This document shows, one piece after another, positions 2,690 through 34,330 of a stretch of DNA of 34,330 nucleotides (position 1 is the first letter of the stretch; each line of letters starts with the position of its first letter). Both the position numbers and the translations under genes were made by a program. Source of the DNA: Syntrophomonadaceae bacterium (GTDB lineage: Bacteria; Bacillota; Dethiobacteria; DTU022); contig PWGX01000037.1 in assembly GCA_003554615.1 (NCBI GenBank), positions 1-34,330 on the forward strand. Direction: 5' to 3'. The notes beneath the pieces are model-generated. The model did no database searches and had not been told where the DNA came from. It worked only from the letters and a program-made list of their open reading frames with translations.

Positions 2690-5600
2690 TTAACATTCGC
2701 TAAAACCACAGGCTTCGCATTTCAGGCACCCTTCGGCCCTGATTAGGGCACAGGTCCCGCAGTCGGGGCAAAGCTCCATGGCATGACTGCTGCTGGCTGT
2801 GTTCTCAGTTGTTTCACTCTGGGCCAGTTTACGCAGGGCCTGGCCAATGGCGTCCGGAACGCTCATAATGCGATTTGGCCCGTAGCCAACAGAGCGGGCG
2901 CCCCCGATACCCTCCAGCTGGGTAACAATTTCATCAATACTGACTCCGCAGCGTAAAGCCAGCGAAACCAGGCGGGCAATCGCTTCTGTGAAGGCAACCA
3001 CATCGCTGCCCGCTTTGCCAATCTGGGCGAACAATTCAAAGGGCTTTCCGTCTGCAGAATTAACGGTGACAAACAAATTGCCCAGGGCGGTACCGATGCT
3101 AGTGGTTTGCCCGCTCAAAGTTTGGGGCCGCCTGGCCGGTTTCAGGGTTTCTTGTTTTTCGCCGTCACCCACGTTTAAAACCTGCTTGCTCCTGGAGCTG
3201 TCCCGGTAGATGGTTATTCCTTTGCAGCCCGCCTTCCAGGCAGTCACATAGGCATTTTTCACGTCCTCCACAGTGGCCTCCTGCTTGAGATTGATGGTTT
3301 TGCTGACGGCATTGTCGGTAAACTTTTGAAAAGCGGCCTGGTGGCGGACATGCCAGCTGTAATCAAATTCCATGGCCGTTTTGAACAGTTCTTTGTATTT
3401 TTTTGGAACCGGTGACTCCTTAGGTATGCCACCGGTCCGGGCTATTTCATGGATCAGCTCTTCGCTGTAGAACCCTTCTTTTTGAGCTATTTCCAGGAAA
3501 AGAGGGTTAACTTCAGGAAGGTCGACGCCTCCCAGGACATTTTTGCGGATGTAGGCAATGCTGAAGTAAGGTTCAATACCGCTGCTGCAGCCGGCAAGGA
3601 TTGAGATTGTTCCGGTAGGGGCAATAGTGGTGCGAGTGGCATTGCGGACCCGGTCTTCCTTGTTGCCGGTGTCATATATACTGCCTTCGAAATTGGGGAA
3701 TACGCCGCGTTCTTCAGCCAGCCGAACTGATTCTTTTTTGGCCTCGGTGTTGATGAAATCCATAACCCTGCCTGCGGTTTCGATAGCCTCTTCACTGTCA
3801 AAGCAAATTTCAAGCTTGATCAGCATATCATGCCAGCCCATAATCCCCAGGCCAATTTTGCGGTTGCCTTCCTTGTGCATTTTGGCTATTTCGGGGATAA
3901 CATAACTGCCGGCATCGATTACGTTGTCCAGGAAACGGACGGCAATTTTGGTTGTCCCGGCCAGCTTGCTCCAGTTTATCTTGCCCTTGCCGGTAACAAA
4001 TTTGCCCAGGTTAATTGAACCCAGGCAGCAGGCCTCGTAAGGCAGAAGCGGTTGTTCACCACAATTGTGAACCATGATACCGTTGGCATCAAAAGCATTG
4101 ATTCCGGGAACCTGAACGTCAAAAACTTCTTCATTACCACATGGTTTAACAGATTCAACAGTGGCTGTGAAGCGCTCCCGGTTAAGATGTCTCTTGTAAA
4201 CAGAGAGTGTTTTATCCAGGCGGCCTTGCTTTTCTGTATCACAAAAGCCGATTTTTTCGGCAAATAATGCCAGGTTGTCCCTGGTAATTACCAGTTCATG
4301 CTGAGGCCGGGTTTTGTAAGTTGCGGTGCCTTTTTTTCCGTTGGACATGGACACAGATCTTTCGCAGCGCCGGTTTTCATAAATTGATGAAGCGATACCA
4401 AACCGGGCCAGCATCCTTTGAACAGCCTGGAGCCTTTCAAGGTGACTCTGGGCCAGGCGGATGGAGATGCCTTTTTTTTGGGTTCCCTGGAAAGAACCGT
4501 CAGCATCAAAAAAGCCTTTAAGAAACCCCTTAATAAAGTGGGAAGAAGTCCTGGTTTCAAGGGTGGGGGTGATCGTTTTATCGCCGGGTTTCATACCTAA
4601 TGAAAAGGCCACTTTCTTCAATGCTGCCGTGCTCATCCTGTATTCATTTCTTCCCTCTACTTTCCACCAGCCTTTAAAGTCGCTGCGGTGGGGCATGGCG
4701 CCGGTAGCGGCATAAGCTTTATCCATGACTGCCGCTGCACCCGGTTGGACCCACGAGGAAAGAACTGCTTTGTCGGTTTTGAGCGTGCCATCGCCGGTAA
4801 GAAGGCCGACCAGGTAACCTTCCTCTTCCCCATACAGCCCTTCCCACTCGCCCTGGTTACGGTGATTGTGGAGCATGATTTCATCACCGGATTTGAGCTT
4901 TTCCACCGGGACCCATTCTTTTTCAAGGGTATACCTGGTTTTGGTTTTAACCCTGAGGACGGGATGGTCACAAGTAGCCTTAAAAGTGTACCCTTGCCTG
5001 GTTTTGATTGAGAATGTGGGTTTAACACCGGTTGAGAAAAAGCCTTTTTCTGTCGTTTCATACGGTTTCCCATCCACGATCAGCCTGGTTTTCTTACCGG
5101 TTAGATCACCGACATGCCTGGGTCCTTCTGCGGTTAAGACAAAGGTGTCAGCGGGCACGCAGGGATTGGTTGTTTCATACTTGTCGATTTGAGGGGTGGG
5201 GTTAAACCGGTTCATCTGATCGATAAAGATAATGCCCGGGTCGCCCATGCCCCATGCATTTTGAACAATTAAATCAAATACGGCCTTGGCATCGAGTTTT
5301 AGTTCATTTCCTGTTTCCGGATCATGGTAAGGCTTTTTTGTGCGGGGATTAATCAGGGTATAGGCAGGATCGGGGTCTTCTCCTGTAGCTTTGCTCATAA
5401 ATTGATCAGAAACGGTGACCGAAAGGTTAAAGTTGTTGATTTCATCTTCTTTTTCCTTGCAGCGGATAAACTCTAAAATATCGGGGTGGTTGTAGATGAG
5501 TGAGCCCATATTCGCTCCCCGCCTGGTTCCGCCCTGCTTTACTGCCTCGGTGGCGGCGTCGAAAATTTTCAGGAAAGATATGGGGCCGCTGGCCACCCCG

Positions 5601-6007
5601 TTGGTAGAGCGGACCGGGTCGTTGGCCGGCCTGAGGCGGTCAAAGGCAAATCCGGTTCCTCCTCCGGTTTTTTGGACCAGGGCCATATTCTTCAGGGCGG
5701 TAAAAATACCTTCCATGCTGTCTTCAAGCGGCAGGACAAAACAGGCGCTGAGCTGCTGCAGTTCTCTGCCCGCATTCATCAGCGTCGGAGAGTTGGGCAT
5801 AAACTGAGCTTCAGCCATCATCTCATAAAAGCTTTTTTCGATGGCTTTAATTTCTTTGTCGTCTTTGCCGTAATCTTTTTCAACTGCAGCGATATTGCCG
5901 GCAACCCTGCGCAAGAGGTCTTCTGGGGTTTCGGTAGGGGTGCCTATTTCGTCTTTGATTAAATATCTTTTTTCGTAAGTTATGCGGGCATTTGGGCTTA
6001 ACTCCAT
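2690..6007 (-). CDS. nrdJ: adenosylcobalamin-dependent ribonucleotide reductase (class II) with intein
   Basis: Reduces ribonucleotides to deoxyribonucleotides using B12, without oxygen. The precursor is 1105 residues; removing a 366-residue intein leaves 739, a usual NrdJ length. Visible host features are the first redox cysteine in LSACFVLPLEDSMEG (C89), KTGGGTGF (113-120), the catalytic NPCGEQ motif split by the intein (N281, P282 then C649, G650, E651), TIAPTGTISILAGCSSG (about 794-810), and a C-terminal zinc ribbon (CPDCGTC, CLKCEACGF, 1080-1101) with a terminal Cys, as in many NrdJ proteins. The start is ATG 6007 behind GGAGG. The 226-nt divergent upstream region shows no recognisable cobalamin riboswitch; the 3' side (2506-2689) is AT-rich with no clear terminator. 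Confidence 0.95.
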   Translation of the reverse strand: MELSPNARITYEKRYLIKDEIGTPTETPEDLLRRVAGNIAAVEKDYGKDDKEIKAIEKSFYEMMAEAQFMPNSPTLMNAGRELQQLSACFVLPLEDSMEGIFTALKNMALVQKTGGGTGFAFDRLRPANDPVRSTNGVASGPISFLKIFDAATEAVKQGGTRRGANMGSLIYNHPDILEFIRCKEKEDEINNFNLSVTVSDQFMSKATGEDPDPAYTLINPRTKKPYHDPETGNELKLDAKAVFDLIVQNAWGMGDPGIIFIDQMNRFNPTPQIDKYETTNPCVPADTFVLTAEGPRHVGDLTGKKTRLIVDGKPYETTEKGFFSTGVKPTFSIKTRQGYTFKATCDHPVLRVKTKTRYTLEKEWVPVEKLKSGDEIMLHNHRNQGEWEGLYGEEEGYLVGLLTGDGTLKTDKAVLSSWVQPGAAAVMDKAYAATGAMPHRSDFKGWWKVEGRNEYRMSTAALKKVAFSLGMKPGDKTITPTLETRTSSHFIKGFLKGFFDADGSFQGTQKKGISIRLAQSHLERLQAVQRMLARFGIASSIYENRRCERSVSMSNGKKGTATYKTRPQHELVITRDNLALFAEKIGFCDTEKQGRLDKTLSVYKRHLNRERFTATVESVKPCGNEEVFDVQVPGINAFDANGIMVHNCGEQPLLPYEACCLGSINLGKFVTGKGKINWSKLAGTTKIAVRFLDNVIDAGSYVIPEIAKMHKEGNRKIGLGIMGWHDMLIKLEICFDSEEAIETAGRVMDFINTEAKKESVRLAEERGVFPNFEGSIYDTGNKEDRVRNATRTTIAPTGTISILAGCSSGIEPYFSIAYIRKNVLGGVDLPEVNPLFLEIAQKEGFYSEELIHEIARTGGIPKESPVPKKYKELFKTAMEFDYSWHVRHQAAFQKFTDNAVSKTINLKQEATVEDVKNAYVTAWKAGCKGITIYRDSSRSKQVLNVGDGEKQETLKPARRPQTLSGQTTSIGTALGNLFVTVNSADGKPFELFAQIGKAGSDVVAFTEAIARLVSLALRCGVSIDEIVTQLEGIGGARSVGYGPNRIMSVPDAIGQALRKLAQSETTENTASSSHAMELCPDCGTCALIRAEGCLKCEACGFSEC
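4064..5161 (-). other. intein with LAGLIDADG homing endonuclease inside NrdJ
   Basis: Residues 283-648 of the nrdJ precursor are a full-size intein. It starts with Cys (CVPADTFVLTAEG, block A), has a block B of TFKATCDHPVL with its His at 348, and ends VHN immediately before a Cys (+1 of the C-extein). The two LAGLIDADG-type motifs are YLVGLLTGDGT (398-408) and FLKGFFDADGS (495-505), so the homing endonuclease core looks intact, aspartates included. Block F is VFDVQVPGINAFDANGIMV. All splice-junction residues (Cys1, penultimate His, terminal Asn, Cys+1) are present, so splicing should work. Codon use and base composition do not stand out sharply from the host gene, which fits long residence. 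Confidence 0.93.
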
Positions 6008-9657: not shown

Positions 9658-10986
9658 TTAGAACCGGGCCAGGTACTGGTTTATTTCCCAATCGTGGACC
9701 TGGATCCGGTAATCATGCCATTCGGCCAGGCGCCCTTCCCGGAACCGGTCATAAATGTGCTCGCCCAGGGCCTCCTGCATAACGAGGTCGTTATCCAGTT
9801 CCAGGACGGCCTGGTAAAGGGTTCCCGGGAGCTGTTCAATTTGATATTGTTCTTTTTCTTCATCGGTCATTGTATATATGTTCAGGTTCACCGGATCGGG
9901 CGGAATTATTTGCTTATGGATACCGTCCAGGCCCGCCCTGAGCATAACCGCAAAGGCCAGGTACGGGTTGCAGGAAGGATCAGGGTTGCGCAGTTCAACC
10001 CTGGTGCCGAGGCCTCTACGGGCCGGAACCCTGACCAGCGGGCTCCGGTTACGGTGGGACCAGGCAATATAAACCGGGGCTTCATAACCGGGAACGAGGC
10101 GTTTGTAAGAGTTGACCAGGGGGTTGGTTACGGCCGTGTAACCCTTGGCATGGGCCAGCAGCCCGCCTATAAAATAAGTCATTTCACTGCTCATTTCATC
10201 GGGCCCCTCCGGGTCATAAAAGATGTTGGAGCCTTTTTTGAATAAAGAAAGGTGGGTATGCATTCCTGAGCCGTTAATCATAGCGATCGGCTTGGGCATA
10301 AAGGTGGCGTAAAGCCCGTGCCTCTGGGCCACGGTGCGGACCACAAACCTGAAGGTGGAAAGATCATCAGCAGTGTGCAGGGCATCGCTGTACTTGAAAT
10401 CTATCTCGTGCTGGCCGGGCGCCACTTCGTGGTGGGATGCCTCTATTTCCAGGCCCATCTGCTCCAGGTTCAGGACCATCTCGCGGCGGGCATTTTCGCC
10501 CAGATCGGTCGGGGCCAGATCGAAATAACCGCCCTGGTCGTGGGTATGCAGGGTTGGGCCGCCGTTGCCGTCGGTATGAAACATGAAGAATTCCGCTTCC
10601 GGGCCGCAGTTCATGCTGTAACCTTCCTTGGCGGCTAAGGCGATCATCCGCTGCAGCTGGCTGCGCGGGCATCCAGCGAAAGGTTCTCCTTCAGGGGTGT
10701 AAACATCGCACATCATCCGGGCCACTCCCCCTTCCTTGGGACGGAAAGGAAATACGGCAAAGGTTTCCAGGTCGGGGCGCAAATACATGTCCGATTCCTC
10801 GATCCGGACGAAACCTTCGATTGACGACCCGTCGAACATCAGCTCCCCGTCAAGTGCTTTTGGCAGCTGGTCGGTGGTGATGGCCACATTTTTTAATTGG
10901 CCGGAAAGGTCGGTAAATTGAAGGCGGACAAACTTCACCCCCGATTCCTTGGCCATGCTCAGAACATCTTCTTTTGTTTTGCCCAT
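9658..10986 (-). CDS. glnA: glutamine synthetase, type I-alpha
   Basis: Makes glutamine from glutamate, ammonia and ATP. It has 442 residues from ATG 10986, which has AAGGAG 8 nt upstream; an in-frame GTG at 10995 lies inside that site. Family signatures are FTDLSGQLKNV, FDGSSIEGF, the metal-site stretch AEFFMF, NGSGMHTHLSLF, and the PARRGLGTRVELRNPDPSCNPYLAF region. The length and absence of the NLYDLPPEE-type adenylylation site (here NLNIYTMTDEEK) place it in the GSI-alpha group, which is not controlled by adenylylation. Control is probably through its leader: a consensus promoter, then competing anti-terminator and terminator hairpins, with an ANTAR protein encoded two genes downstream. 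Upstream lies the glutamate synthase remnant. Confidence 0.97.
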   Translation of the reverse strand: MGKTKEDVLSMAKESGVKFVRLQFTDLSGQLKNVAITTDQLPKALDGELMFDGSSIEGFVRIEESDMYLRPDLETFAVFPFRPKEGGVARMMCDVYTPEGEPFAGCPRSQLQRMIALAAKEGYSMNCGPEAEFFMFHTDGNGGPTLHTHDQGGYFDLAPTDLGENARREMVLNLEQMGLEIEASHHEVAPGQHEIDFKYSDALHTADDLSTFRFVVRTVAQRHGLYATFMPKPIAMINGSGMHTHLSLFKKGSNIFYDPEGPDEMSSEMTYFIGGLLAHAKGYTAVTNPLVNSYKRLVPGYEAPVYIAWSHRNRSPLVRVPARRGLGTRVELRNPDPSCNPYLAFAVMLRAGLDGIHKQIIPPDPVNLNIYTMTDEEKEQYQIEQLPGTLYQAVLELDNDLVMQEALGEHIYDRFREGRLAEWHDYRIQVHDWEINQYLARF

Positions 10987-29278: not shown

Positions 29279-29312
29279 TATTTGATCCGCTGTTGAAATG
29301 GAGAGAAAGAAC

Positions 29313-31544
29313 ATGGGTAAGTTTAACGCTGTCCTCTCCTGGGACGGCCCTGCCCCCGCTCATGAAGCCATCGAAGAAGCGAAAAAAATAAAAGGGATTG
29401 CTCATCTCGAAGCGGAGAGAGAGAAGCAGTTGATTCGCCTGGAAGCAGCCCACCCCCTGGCCCTCGAAAAAGTGGAAAACTTCTTTTTATCCAGAGGTAT
29501 TGTCTTTTCTTCAGAAAAGGCCGTTTTAAAAATTAAAGGCGGGGGGGAAAAAGAAACAGAACGGGAAGCTTTGAACCTGAAAGGAGTGCTGAGCGCTTCG
29601 TTCTGGAAGAAAGGTTTCCTGGTCGTGTCATACAATTCCGGGGAAACGGACCTGGCCCTGGTATGCCGGCAGCTGGCAGAGAAATGCCGCTGCCAGGTGG
29701 AAAAAGCTTATATCACCAACCCAGTCTTGCTTTTGCTTGAAAGCCGGCAGGGTAAAGTATTCCTGGCGGCCGGATTTTTCCTGCTGGCGGGAGTTTTTTT
29801 GAGAAATGCAGATCCGCCTGTGAGTACAGCTTCGTATTTGGCTGCTGTTGCTGCCGGGGGAGTGCCCGTGATCCAGGCGGCATGGGCCGGGCTCAGGCAG
29901 AAGGCGGTTAATTTTAATGTCCTGGTCCTGGTGGCCCTGGCTGCTGCTGTTCTTTCCGGGCACTTCCTGGCCGCAGCCGAGGTGGCTGTTCTGATGTCGC
30001 TCGGAGTCCTCCTCGAAGAGTATACGATCAAAAGGAGTTTTGAAACTTCTTCTTCCCTGCTGCAGTTTATGCCGCGTCAGGCCCTGCGTAAAAGAGGGGA
30101 CAGGGAGGAGCGAATATCGGCTCGCGAAGTGAAAGAAAATGACCTGGTCCTGGTGGCGCCGGGCCAGAGAGCCCCTGTAGACGGGACGGTTGTAAAGGGC
30201 AGATCCTGGGTGGACCAGAGCGCCCTGACCGGCGAAAACGCCCCGGAAGAGAAACTGCCTGGCAGCTCCGTTTTAAGCGGCAGTTTGATCTTATCCGGCC
30301 TGCTGGAAATCAGGGCTGAAAGGGTCGGAGATGAGACCAGTATCTCCCAGACGGCTTCTCTGCTGGATCAGTGCCTGGAAGAAGAAACGGACTTTTCCAG
30401 GTTAATTGATAAAGTTGCCGCCTATCTTTTGCCGGTTGTCCTTTTACTGGCCCTGATCGGCCTGGGAACAACCGGCCAGGTTACGGTGGCGGTGACCATA
30501 TTGATTGGAGCCTGCCCCTGCGCGCTGGTGATGGCCACTCCTGCTGTTACCCGGGCGGGGATATCAAATGCCTCGTTAAACGGTATCTTTGTTAAAGGAG
30601 GACGCTACCTGGAAAAACTGGCTTCCATAAACTGCGTGGCCCTGGATAAAACCGGCACCCTGACTACATCGAGCCATAAGCTAATCAAAATACATCCTTT
30701 CCCACCCTGGGAGGAAAAGGAACTCCTATCACTTGCTGCTGCCGCTGAAAAATATTCCGATCCCCCCCTGGCCAGGGCTATTAAAGAGGCCGCCCTGGAA
30801 AAAGGGTTGGAGCCGGGGCAGGTGGAAGGATTTGCCGCAGCTGCAGGCGGGGGCGTTACGGCGACAGTTGATAACAGGAAGGTAGAAATCAGGAGCGCTC
30901 TATCCGAGCGGGCCGGAATCCCCGGTAATATTGAAGCGCCGGCGGGATCCACGCCGGTTATGGTTACGGTTGAAGGAAACCAGGCCGGCTTGTTTTTTAT
31001 GACCGGGGAAACCAAAGCGGAAGCTCGGGAAGCGGTAGCCGGAATGCGCCGCTCGGGGATTGGCGAAACCGTGATTATTTCCGGAGACACGGAAGAGGCC
31101 ACCGCTCTGATGGCGGATGAAATCGGGGTAAAGTCATATTATGCCGAACTGATGCCCGGAGAAAAGGTGCAGGTTATAAAAGAGTTGCAGAACAAAGGTT
31201 TGCAGGTGGCCATGGTCGGTGACGGCATCAATGATGCCCCCGCCCTGGCGACTTCAGATCTTGGCATTGCCATGGGCCTGAAAGGAACGGATTTGGCCGT
31301 TGACACCTCTCCGGTGGTGTTTCTTTCCGACAACCTGGACCGGCTCTCTTATTTATTTGATCTGGGGAAAAGGGCTGCTTCATTGATCAGGCAAAATATT
31401 ATTTTTGCCTGCCTGGTTATTGTGTTCCTGGTAACCTTTGCCTTTCTGGAATACGTGGGCCCGGCCTCCGGAGCTTTACTGCATAAAGGCAGCGCTATTG
31501 CTGTAATTTTAAATGCCATGCGCTTAATGTATTTTAAGGGGTAA
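29313..31544 (+). CDS. P1B-type heavy-metal-translocating ATPase, unusual HP motif
   Basis: A 743-residue membrane pump (ATG 29313 behind GGAGAGAAAG; an earlier ATG at 29298 has no site). Numbering from 29298: an N-terminal soluble region without CxxC (1-150, with a CRC at 130-132), helices about 152-240, TGEN (311-314), transmembrane metal site CPC (406-408), phosphorylation motif DKTGT (450-454), and GDGINDAPALA. The last helices include HKGSAIAVILNAMRL. The usual SxHPLA of P1B pumps is SDPPLARAI (487-495): the ATP-contacting His is Pro. The class and metal are not determined; CPC fits soft metals. It follows the CC/Se-motif gene. Confidence 0.9.
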   Translation: MGKFNAVLSWDGPAPAHEAIEEAKKIKGIAHLEAEREKQLIRLEAAHPLALEKVENFFLSRGIVFSSEKAVLKIKGGGEKETEREALNLKGVLSASFWKKGFLVVSYNSGETDLALVCRQLAEKCRCQVEKAYITNPVLLLLESRQGKVFLAAGFFLLAGVFLRNADPPVSTASYLAAVAAGGVPVIQAAWAGLRQKAVNFNVLVLVALAAAVLSGHFLAAAEVAVLMSLGVLLEEYTIKRSFETSSSLLQFMPRQALRKRGDREERISAREVKENDLVLVAPGQRAPVDGTVVKGRSWVDQSALTGENAPEEKLPGSSVLSGSLILSGLLEIRAERVGDETSISQTASLLDQCLEEETDFSRLIDKVAAYLLPVVLLLALIGLGTTGQVTVAVTILIGACPCALVMATPAVTRAGISNASLNGIFVKGGRYLEKLASINCVALDKTGTLTTSSHKLIKIHPFPPWEEKELLSLAAAAEKYSDPPLARAIKEAALEKGLEPGQVEGFAAAAGGGVTATVDNRKVEIRSALSERAGIPGNIEAPAGSTPVMVTVEGNQAGLFFMTGETKAEAREAVAGMRRSGIGETVIISGDTEEATALMADEIGVKSYYAELMPGEKVQVIKELQNKGLQVAMVGDGINDAPALATSDLGIAMGLKGTDLAVDTSPVVFLSDNLDRLSYLFDLGKRAASLIRQNIIFACLVIVFLVTFAFLEYVGPASGALLHKGSAIAVILNAMRLMYFKG

Positions 31545-32082: not shown

Positions 32083-32982
32083 TTGAACAAGTTGCAGTAT
32101 GAGAAATGCCAGGAAGAAATCACCCGCTGTAATAGGTTGTACCAGGGTTTTAGCGATGCCTCATCTTTTATCAGTGCCGTATGCAGCGCTGCTTACGAAT
32201 ATTTTAAAGCGCATCCTGTAAAATCTCTGCCGGTTTATGATCAGGACGAAGCTGAAGAATCGATCCGGGCCGGAAGGTCTCTAGCTCTTAACCCACCCCT
32301 TAACTCCAAAGCTGTGGTGAGGTTGCTGAAAAGCTTTGGGGAGGCGATTGCTAAAGCTAACCCGAAATTGAAAGCCACCGTAAAAGAAATGAATAATTAT
32401 CTTGATCAATTCCTCCATGATTCTCCGGAAGAATTGGGCAGGGAGGATATTTTCAATTTACAGGATTCAATGATCAAAGATACGGAGCTGGAAGAGGATC
32501 TGGCCACGTTTCTTTTTTCATTTTTGATATATTCTTTTTACAGGCAGTATTTGCAGACAATATCCGAGGTTTTACGGACAGACCTCTGGGAAGGGGGGGA
32601 TTGCCCGTTATGCGGTGCGAAGCCGCATTATGGCCTGCTCAGGTCTGAAGATGGGGCCAAGCAGCTGCAATGCTGGACCTGTGGTACACAGTGGCTTCAT
32701 ACCCGTATTAAATGTCCGTTCTGTGATAACACAGATATGGAAAAACTCGGATTTTTTACTGTTGAAGACAACGAAAAAGTCCGGGTTAATTACTGTCAAA
32801 AATGCTGCCAGTACTATAAGATCTTTGATGCACGCAAGTTTCATGCGGATGGTGATGTTGTTCTAGCCATCCACAACCTTGCCTCCCTGACGCATGATCT
32901 GTTGGCGAGGCGGGAAGGTTTTACTCCGGGTTCCGGCCTGGAGTGGGTTAATAAAGACGAGATCATTGAAGCACAAGACTAG
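32083..32982 (+). CDS. fdhE: formate dehydrogenase accessory protein FdhE
   Basis: A 299-residue protein that is needed to mature formate dehydrogenase before Tat export; E. coli FdhE binds iron and the catalytic subunit. The start is TTG 32083 with AAAGGAG 10 nt upstream. The N-terminal two thirds are helical. The C-terminal part carries four cysteine pairs: C174/C177, C197/C200, C211/C214 and C238/C241 (CPLCGAKP, CWTCGTQW, CPFCDN, CQKC), the rubredoxin-like sites of the family. It ends 15 nt before the formate dehydrogenase start, with the AGGAGG of that gene at its 3' edge. Together they form the start of a formate dehydrogenase operon. Confidence 0.92.
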   Translation: MNKLQYEKCQEEITRCNRLYQGFSDASSFISAVCSAAYEYFKAHPVKSLPVYDQDEAEESIRAGRSLALNPPLNSKAVVRLLKSFGEAIAKANPKLKATVKEMNNYLDQFLHDSPEELGREDIFNLQDSMIKDTELEEDLATFLFSFLIYSFYRQYLQTISEVLRTDLWEGGDCPLCGAKPHYGLLRSEDGAKQLQCWTCGTQWLHTRIKCPFCDNTDMEKLGFFTVEDNEKVRVNYCQKCCQYYKIFDARKFHADGDVVLAIHNLASLTHDLLARREGFTPGSGLEWVNKDEIIEAQD

Positions 32983-32997
32983 GAGGTGGATTTACTA

Positions 32998-34330
32998 ATG
33001 GATTTGACACGGCGCAGCTTTTTAAAACTGGCCGGAGCAACTGCCGCTGCAGCAACGTTGACCGGCGTTGGCCTGCGTAAGGCCTCTGCGTCTCCCAGCG
33101 AACCGCTGCGGATCAAGTACACAAAAGAACTGCACACTGTGTGTACTTTTTGCGGAGTAGGTTGCGGGGTTATTTGTAATGTAAGGGACGGGGTAATTGT
33201 CAACGCAGAAGGCGATCCCGATCATCCCGTCAATGAAGGTACCCTCTGCAGCAAGGGTAGCGCTCATTACAATGTATCTTATATTTATGATGAAAAAGGT
33301 AATCCAAAGCCCAATCCAAATCGTTTAACCCATGTGCTCTACCGGGCACCGGGAGCAAGCAGTTATGAAACTGTTGACTGGGACTGGGCCCTGGAAGAGA
33401 TCGCGAAAAAAATCAAGGACACCCGCGATCGGACCCTGGTCGAAACAGAAACTGTTAATGGCCAGCAGGTGACAGTAAACCGTACCAATTCGATTTGCTG
33501 GCTTGGCAGCGCGTTTTGTACCGACGAGGAAAACTATCTGTTTCATAAAATGGCCAGGAGTATGGGCGTGATCAATGTCGATCACTGCGCCCGCCTCTGA
33601 CACTCTACTACAGTCGCGGGTCTCGCGGCAACATTTGGAAGAGGGTGCATGACCAATCACTGGAACGATTACCAGCACACAGATGTTTTCATGAATATTG
33701 GTGGAAACACTGCAGAAAATCACCCCATTTCGATGAAATGGATCGAAAAAGCCCGGGAAAACAAGAATGCAAAGCTAATTGTAGTTGATCCCAGGGTATC
33801 GAGGACTGCTGCAGTGTCTGATGTTTATGTTCCGATTCGTCCAGGCACCAACACTGCTTACCTGGGCGGATTGATTAACTACATCCTTGAAAATGAACTC
33901 TACCACAAGGAGTATGTTGAAGCTTATACCAATGCTACTCACCTGATTGATGAAGGATTCGAGTTCGATGAGCAAACCGGCTTGTTCTCCGGTGCTTTTG
34001 ATGACCCGGTCCGCAATGCTACCAGCTACGACCAGGAAACCTGGGCTTACCAGAAAGACGAAGATGTCAATATTCTACAAGACGAAACAATGGAAGATCC
34101 CAACTGTGTAATGCAGATTATGAAAAGGTATTACAGCAAGTACAATCTTGATAATGTAAGCAATATAACCGGAGCTGAACCGGAAGCACTGAAAGAATCT
34201 TATGAGCTCTTTAGCACCACAGGTGAACCTGGTAAAGCCGGAAATATTCTTTACGCCATGGGCATTACCCAGTTTACTCACGGCGCCCAGAACGTAAGGT
34301 GTATAGCCGTGGTTCAACTCCTGCTTGGTA
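32998..34330 (+). CDS. selenocysteine formate dehydrogenase catalytic subunit (5' part; continues beyond window)
   Basis: Oxidises formate with a molybdenum or tungsten pterin cofactor. It starts at ATG 32998 (AGGAGG 11 nt upstream) with a twin-arginine signal peptide, MDLTRRSFLKLAGATAAAAT, so it is exported. A [4Fe-4S] site CTFCGVGCGVIC...LCSKG follows. An in-frame TGA at codon 201 (33598-33600) lies in the exact active-site context NVDHCARL-U-HSTTVAGLAATFG, where this family has Sec followed by His; the frame stays open for 243 further codons to the window edge, all matching the family (GRGCMTNHWNDYQHTDVF, VVDPRVSRTA). It is therefore one gene, not a broken pair; a stop-only reading would end it at 33600. 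The FdnG/FdhA-type beta subunit genes should lie to the right. Confidence 0.95.
33598..33629 (+). promoter_or_regulatory. selenocysteine codon and bacterial SECIS hairpin
   Basis: UGA at 33598-33600. Downstream, CGCG (33615-33618), loop GGTCT (33619-33623), CGCG (33624-33627), extended by a T-G and a G-C pair (33614/33628, 33613/33629). The loop GGUCU placed 18 nt after UGA matches the SelB-binding apical loop of E. coli fdhF. Confidence 0.85.

Follow-up and report, generated by a model that had tools for sequence, protein, structure and literature searches.

The window analysed here, a stretch of 34,330 bases, comprises an entire contig (C54) of a Dethiobacter-like Bacillota draft genome (982,902 bases in 56 contigs, 71% complete), a member of a group that is common in soda-lake sediments. 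At its downstream end lie, on the forward strand, fdhE (32083..32982), encoding a formate dehydrogenase accessory protein, and directly downstream of it the start of fdhA (32998..34330), encoding the N-terminal 444 residues of a selenocysteine (Sec)-containing formate dehydrogenase-N alpha subunit. As read directly from the sequence, the fdhA ATG at 32998 is preceded by a Shine-Dalgarno-like AGGAGGTGG (32981-32989), and the fdhE stop codon overlaps this ribosome-binding site. In agreement with the first-pass annotation, in which a plain gene call ended at the TGA at 33598, the table-11 open reading frame starting at 32998 terminates at the TGA at 33598..33600 (+), which corresponds to residue 201 and has the context DHCARL-U-HSTTVAGLAATFG. 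Reading through this TGA extends the frame to 444 codons up to the contig end with zero further stops, and the chance of 243 stop-free codons after the TGA, estimated from base composition, is ~7e-6. The frame had also been described as open for the rest of the window; this holds in that no stop follows the TGA, but amounts to 243 codons only, because the window is the whole contig and the gene is truncated by the contig end. The protein starts with a Tat signal peptide (RRSFLK; 32998..33060, +), for which PF10518 (TAT_signal) scores 24.1 bits against a cut-off of 22.7, supporting the proposed export by Tat.

Elsewhere in the window, a small protein at 28964-29278 matches NCBIfam NF041239 (CC/Se motif (seleno)protein) with 38.8 bits, just under the cut-off of 40, in the Cys form (CPCCSPGSP), and is directly followed by a heavy-metal P-type ATPase (29298-31544). 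The minus strand carries at 2690-6007 a ribonucleotide reductase with an intein, recognised by its LAGLIDADG and splicing domains.

The joined fdhA frame matches the formate dehydrogenase-N alpha profile TIGR01553 over residues 3-444 with 462 bits, under the cut-off of 814.2 because the gene is truncated. The full-length relative in locus L014 (P0002), which is 96% identical over the shared part, scores 1128.9 bits and thereby exceeds this cut-off. PF04879 (molybdopterin Fe4S4), PF00384 (molybdopterin) and PF10518 are all over cut-off in the frame. Its top PDB matches are the Sec formate dehydrogenases 9qm0 and 6sdr, which align end to end; the TGA falls exactly on their Sec position, given as X in 6sdr and as C in 9qm0. 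These profile and structure matches on either side of the TGA, and across it, bear out the earlier assignment of the flanking residues to the active site of a Sec formate dehydrogenase, for which alignment of the joined frame to FdnG and FdhA had been suggested as a check. In this enzyme family, the active-site Sec ligates Mo or W. The fdhE product, 83% identical to its homologue in L014, scores 66.5 bits with TIGR01562 (FdhE; below cut-off), and the Pfam domains FdhE_C and FdhE_central are both over cut-off.

Related loci were retrieved from public genomes with peptide patterns that leave out the Sec site, and the TGA was found at the identical codon in 29 of 29. In a second search for relatives, all matches spanning the site carry one in-frame TGA. 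Comparison of the window with L014 gave a dN of 0.0191 and a dS of 0.390 before the TGA, and a dN of 0.0195 and a dS of 0.486 after it. As dN is equal on either side, selection preserves the downstream protein as strictly as the upstream part. Within the genus, the occurrence of an fdhA homologue is patchy (5 of 11 congeners). SelB together with Sec-tRNA, guided by the SECIS hairpin shortly downstream, most likely inserts the active-site Sec at the TGA at 33598.

A SECIS hairpin with the loop GGUCU had likewise been reported in the first-pass annotation, and our analyses support it. The apical hairpin (GUCGCG-GGUCU-CGCGGC; 33613..33629, +) has a 6-bp stem, with the loop at 33619-33623, and lies within a match to Rfam SECIS_3 (RF01989) at 33595-33653 that scores 31.9 bits (E 7.4e-5 in 1.5 kb) and does not reach the gathering score of 63. 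Since the same model gives 30.6-36.3 bits in the six relatives tested, including other genera, it is the model that is narrow rather than the window hairpin that is poor. The z-score of the hairpin is -2.5 for 17 nt and only -0.9 for 45 nt. In the majority of relatives, the apical stem sits one base over and closes a 4-base loop (GUCU), and the GGUCU register fits only 3 of 23 sequences (window, L020, and L081), so that it is not the consensus. The shifted stem in these three keeps GGU equally far from the TGA. The hairpin is embedded in coding sequence, so that conservation by itself is not independent evidence, whereas paired changes are. Two pairs of the apical stem show compensatory changes among the relatives (G-C to A-U and C-G to U-A), and the stem yields 6 covarying cells compared to 1.4 in shuffles. 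The match is weak but genuine, and its position, hairpin, and loop, as well as the covariation, are consistent with a SECIS element.

From the Sec codon, it had been concluded that the genome must encode SelA, SelB, SelC, and SelD. Searching the 71%-complete draft genome itself, which measures 0.98 Mb compared to 1.3-2.5 Mb in congeners, did not reveal selA, selB, or selD, and no candidate for tRNA-Sec (selC) reached the gathering score. The best SelB match (contig C11, 191 bits, below cut-off) covers only model positions 1-325 in a 400-aa frame, as is typical of EF-Tu, which it most likely represents, and the sub-threshold tRNA-Sec candidate located in the window is a tRNA-Arg(CCT). The relatives do have the machinery: selA was found in 26 of 29 genomes carrying an fdhA homologue, and of 30 genomes searched for selB, 26 exceeded the cut-off. 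For selD the figure is 17 of 19 relatives, and for tRNA-Sec 14 of 19 passed the cut-off. Among genomes that are at least 90% complete, the searches for selD and tRNA-Sec both matched in nine out of nine, indicating that missing data are the likely cause of the absence from the draft. In congener G035, selD, selB, and selA are contiguous (L095 3870-8308, G035:C135), and therefore two missing loci, selDBA and selC, would suffice to explain the absence. The selD gene of this cluster carries an in-frame TGA of its own, so that SelD itself is probably a selenoprotein. Hence, a genome encoding SelA, SelB, SelC, and SelD is soundly inferred rather than an observed fact.

Because the contig ends within fdhA, the remaining operon is invisible from the window. 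In L014, the gene order is fdhE, fdhA, fdhB, rnfC, and rnfD with gaps of 0-30 bp, rnfC and rnfD lying at most 30 bp from fdhB and from each other. In FdhB of this relative, 4Fe-4S domains are combined with a single membrane helix, predicted at the C-terminus. No cytochrome b gamma subunit is encoded among the genes downstream of fdhB in L014, so that, as judged from L014 since the window ends before that region, the operon differs from an FdnGHI operon. In the draft genome itself, contig C13 starts inside rnfC (97% identical to L014), followed by rnfD. C13 is colinear with L014 from position 10,614, and the end of the window corresponds to position 7,331 of L014; colinearity with the 96%-identical L014 thus places ~3.3 kb between window and C13 that are missing from the assembly. 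A search of the own genome for the molybdopterin C-terminal domain gave no match, consistent with the rest of fdhA lying in this gap. Judged by this colinearity, the full operon fdhE-fdhA-fdhB-rnfC-rnfD is split, with fdhE and the fdhA start on the window and the rnfC end and whole rnfD on C13.

RnfC and RnfD adjoin the fdhA homologue in 23 of the 29 related loci, the remaining six being cut by contig ends. Two gene orders occur among the relatives, fdhAB-rnfCD or rnfCD-fdhAB, and L020 involves the opposite strand. The related loci include one from a cultured carrier, Anoxynatronum buryatiense (L040). Close formate dehydrogenase loci were also found in bins labelled Bradymonadales, Thioalkalivibrio, and Dehalococcoidia (L020, L022, and L030), which reflects either misbinned contigs or gene transfer. 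Taken together, the locus is, with high confidence, the start of a Tat-exported Sec formate dehydrogenase of the FdnG/FdhA family in an operon fdhE-fdhA-fdhB-rnfC-rnfD. The fdhA product is a further member of the Sec formate dehydrogenases, and the Sec enzyme itself is ordinary, textbook biology.

The two accompanying proteins were assigned by TIGR01945 (RnfC, 505 bits) and TIGR01946 (RnfD, 265 bits), both over cut-off, and their PDB matches are the solved Rnf subunits 7zc6 and 9eri. The operon contains RnfC and RnfD only, instead of the six subunits RnfABCDEG, and a complete canonical rnfCDGEAB is present elsewhere in the own genome. The formate dehydrogenase-linked RnfD proteins form one clade (support 100/100) apart from the RnfD of complete rnfCDGEAB, and nearly all of them keep the flavin-attachment motif TQATPLA, including its Thr. 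Separately, a short RnfD-like protein with no adjoining rnfC is encoded beside an iron-type ABC transporter in congener G035 (L098 5596-6507, G035:C94), and similar short matches were seen in several congeners.

Gene content and order, family membership, the Sec codon, and the Tat signal are direct observations; gene order and subunit types, in turn, suggest a complex of formate dehydrogenase with RnfC and RnfD. We propose, with a probability of roughly 0.55, that the Sec formate dehydrogenase of these soda-lake bacteria and their relatives forms a stable complex with its dedicated RnfC and RnfD, in which a 'half Rnf' serves as a transmembrane wire linking formate outside the cell to NAD+ inside it, and neither a quinone nor the RnfA/E pump takes part. 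The FdhA-FdhB pair would face outside, with the C-terminal FdhB helix as its anchor, and FdhA would oxidise formate outside the cell. FdhB may then exchange electrons with the externally exposed FMN of the dedicated RnfD, which would carry them across the membrane to RnfC for the reduction of NAD+ inside. Such an arrangement would constitute a transmembrane formate:NAD+ oxidoreductase that dispenses with both quinone and the sodium-pumping RnfA/E. In the forward direction, formate oxidation with inward electron flow would build up membrane potential, and in reverse the membrane potential could drive the discharge of NADH as external formate in syntrophy.

In the published U-shaped electron path of Rnf, electrons pass from RnfG outside to the FMN of RnfD outside, on to riboflavin, RnfC, and NAD+, and RnfD does not pump Na+ (PMC11889175). 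The second half of this path equals the proposed route from RnfD to RnfC. With potentials of -430 mV for formate (PMC12835891) and -320 mV for NAD+ (PMC6295475), electron transfer to NAD+ would be downhill.

The strongest alternative, which we regard as possible but rather doubtful, is that the Sec formate dehydrogenase either forms a conventional complex of the FdnGHI type that reduces quinone or is a soluble FdhAB, the adjoining RnfC and RnfD serving other enzymes. A conventional enzyme would be in line with the general rule for the FdnG type, whose alpha and beta subunits are mostly accompanied by a cytochrome b subunit. It is also favoured by the periplasmic formate dehydrogenase of Thermacetogenium phaeum, a quinone-linked enzyme with a gamma subunit (PMC6895022). 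Yet the L014 operon continues downstream with no such gamma subunit, its rnfC and rnfD follow fdhB within at most 30 bp, and the linkage to fdhA is kept in two gene orders, all of which speaks against this alternative, as does the separation of the RnfD clade from the RnfD of complete Rnf. Alternatively, FdhAB might feed the complete six-subunit Rnf, the extra RnfC and RnfD being alternative subunits of the pump, so that formate oxidation would drive the Na+ pump too. The full rnfCDGEAB in the genome would permit this, but we consider it unlikely given how far the formate dehydrogenase-linked RnfD has diverged from canonical RnfD. Moreover, electrons entering at RnfD would bypass the RnfA/E pump, because RnfA/E precede RnfG and RnfD in the published path (PMC11889175). 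Finally, the idea that the TGA is a true stop, in a pseudogene or through sequencing error, draws on the Sec machinery not found in the own draft genome and is barely credible. All 29 relatives have their TGA at this position, and dN/dS is low and equal before and after it, which effectively rules out read-through of a real stop, a pseudogene, and a sequencing error. In addition, the protein aligns in full length to Sec enzymes, the SECIS stem is compensated in relatives, and the upstream fdhE and downstream rnfD are both intact.

If the proposed FDH-RnfCD wire is true, formate could be used or disposed of at the cell surface without transporters and coupled to membrane potential. The operon would then be a candidate answer to how Dethiobacteria syntrophs with an exported formate dehydrogenase and no formate transporter connect external formate to internal NADH. 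Automatic annotation splits the Sec formate dehydrogenase at the TGA, as in Thermacetogenium phaeum (PMC6895022), and this hides a catabolic enzyme.

The adjacency of the genes was already known. Frank et al. 2016 described a truncated Rnf of unFirm_1, with RnfC and RnfD only, next to a formate dehydrogenase, detected RnfC and the formate dehydrogenase in the metaproteome, and remarked that a connection of Rnf with formate dehydrogenases is not typical (PMC5080403). The electron path through RnfD and RnfC is suggested here as a proposal of the present analysis. A literature search found no earlier proposal of a path from FdhAB via RnfD to RnfC, which, as it covered open-access papers only, is weak evidence of novelty.

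Similar to the enzyme described here, FdhAB of D. vulgaris (6sdr, 9qm0) and FdnGHI of E. coli (1kqf) have a Tat-exported alpha subunit with an active-site Sec encoded by TGA, and the FdhB-type iron-sulfur subunit is common to both and to the relatives of the window locus. To our knowledge, neither of the two is encoded together with rnfC and rnfD. In E. coli FdnGHI, electrons pass via cytochrome b and quinone, whereas the operon of the relatives has no cytochrome b subunit. Canonical Rnf (A. woodii, 9eri; C. tetanomorphum, 7zc6) shares the 4Fe-4S motifs and FMN-binding domain of RnfC and the Thr flavin-attachment motif of RnfD, but also has RnfA, RnfB, RnfE, and RnfG, all four of which are absent from the formate dehydrogenase operon, whose RnfD falls into a separate clade. 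Within the Dethiobacteria, accounts of the soda-lake syntrophs 'Ca. Syntrophonatronum acetioxidans' (PMC6295475) and 'Ca. Contubernalis alkaliaceticus' (PMC10608574) describe a Tat-exported formate dehydrogenase alpha subunit and no formate transporter, and in these excerpted accounts the enzymes are not linked to RnfC/RnfD (PMC6295475, PMC10608574). For the former, RnfC, D, and two G genes were interpreted as a partial Rnf complex (PMC6295475), and the beta subunit of the latter is described with one C-terminal helix, like FdhB here (PMC10608574). Selenocysteine, a separate clade of RnfD, and an electron path all go unmentioned in the excerpted account of unFirm_1 (PMC5080403). As in the operon described here, RnfC and RnfD are the only Rnf subunits adjoining the formate dehydrogenase of unFirm_1 (PMC5080403).
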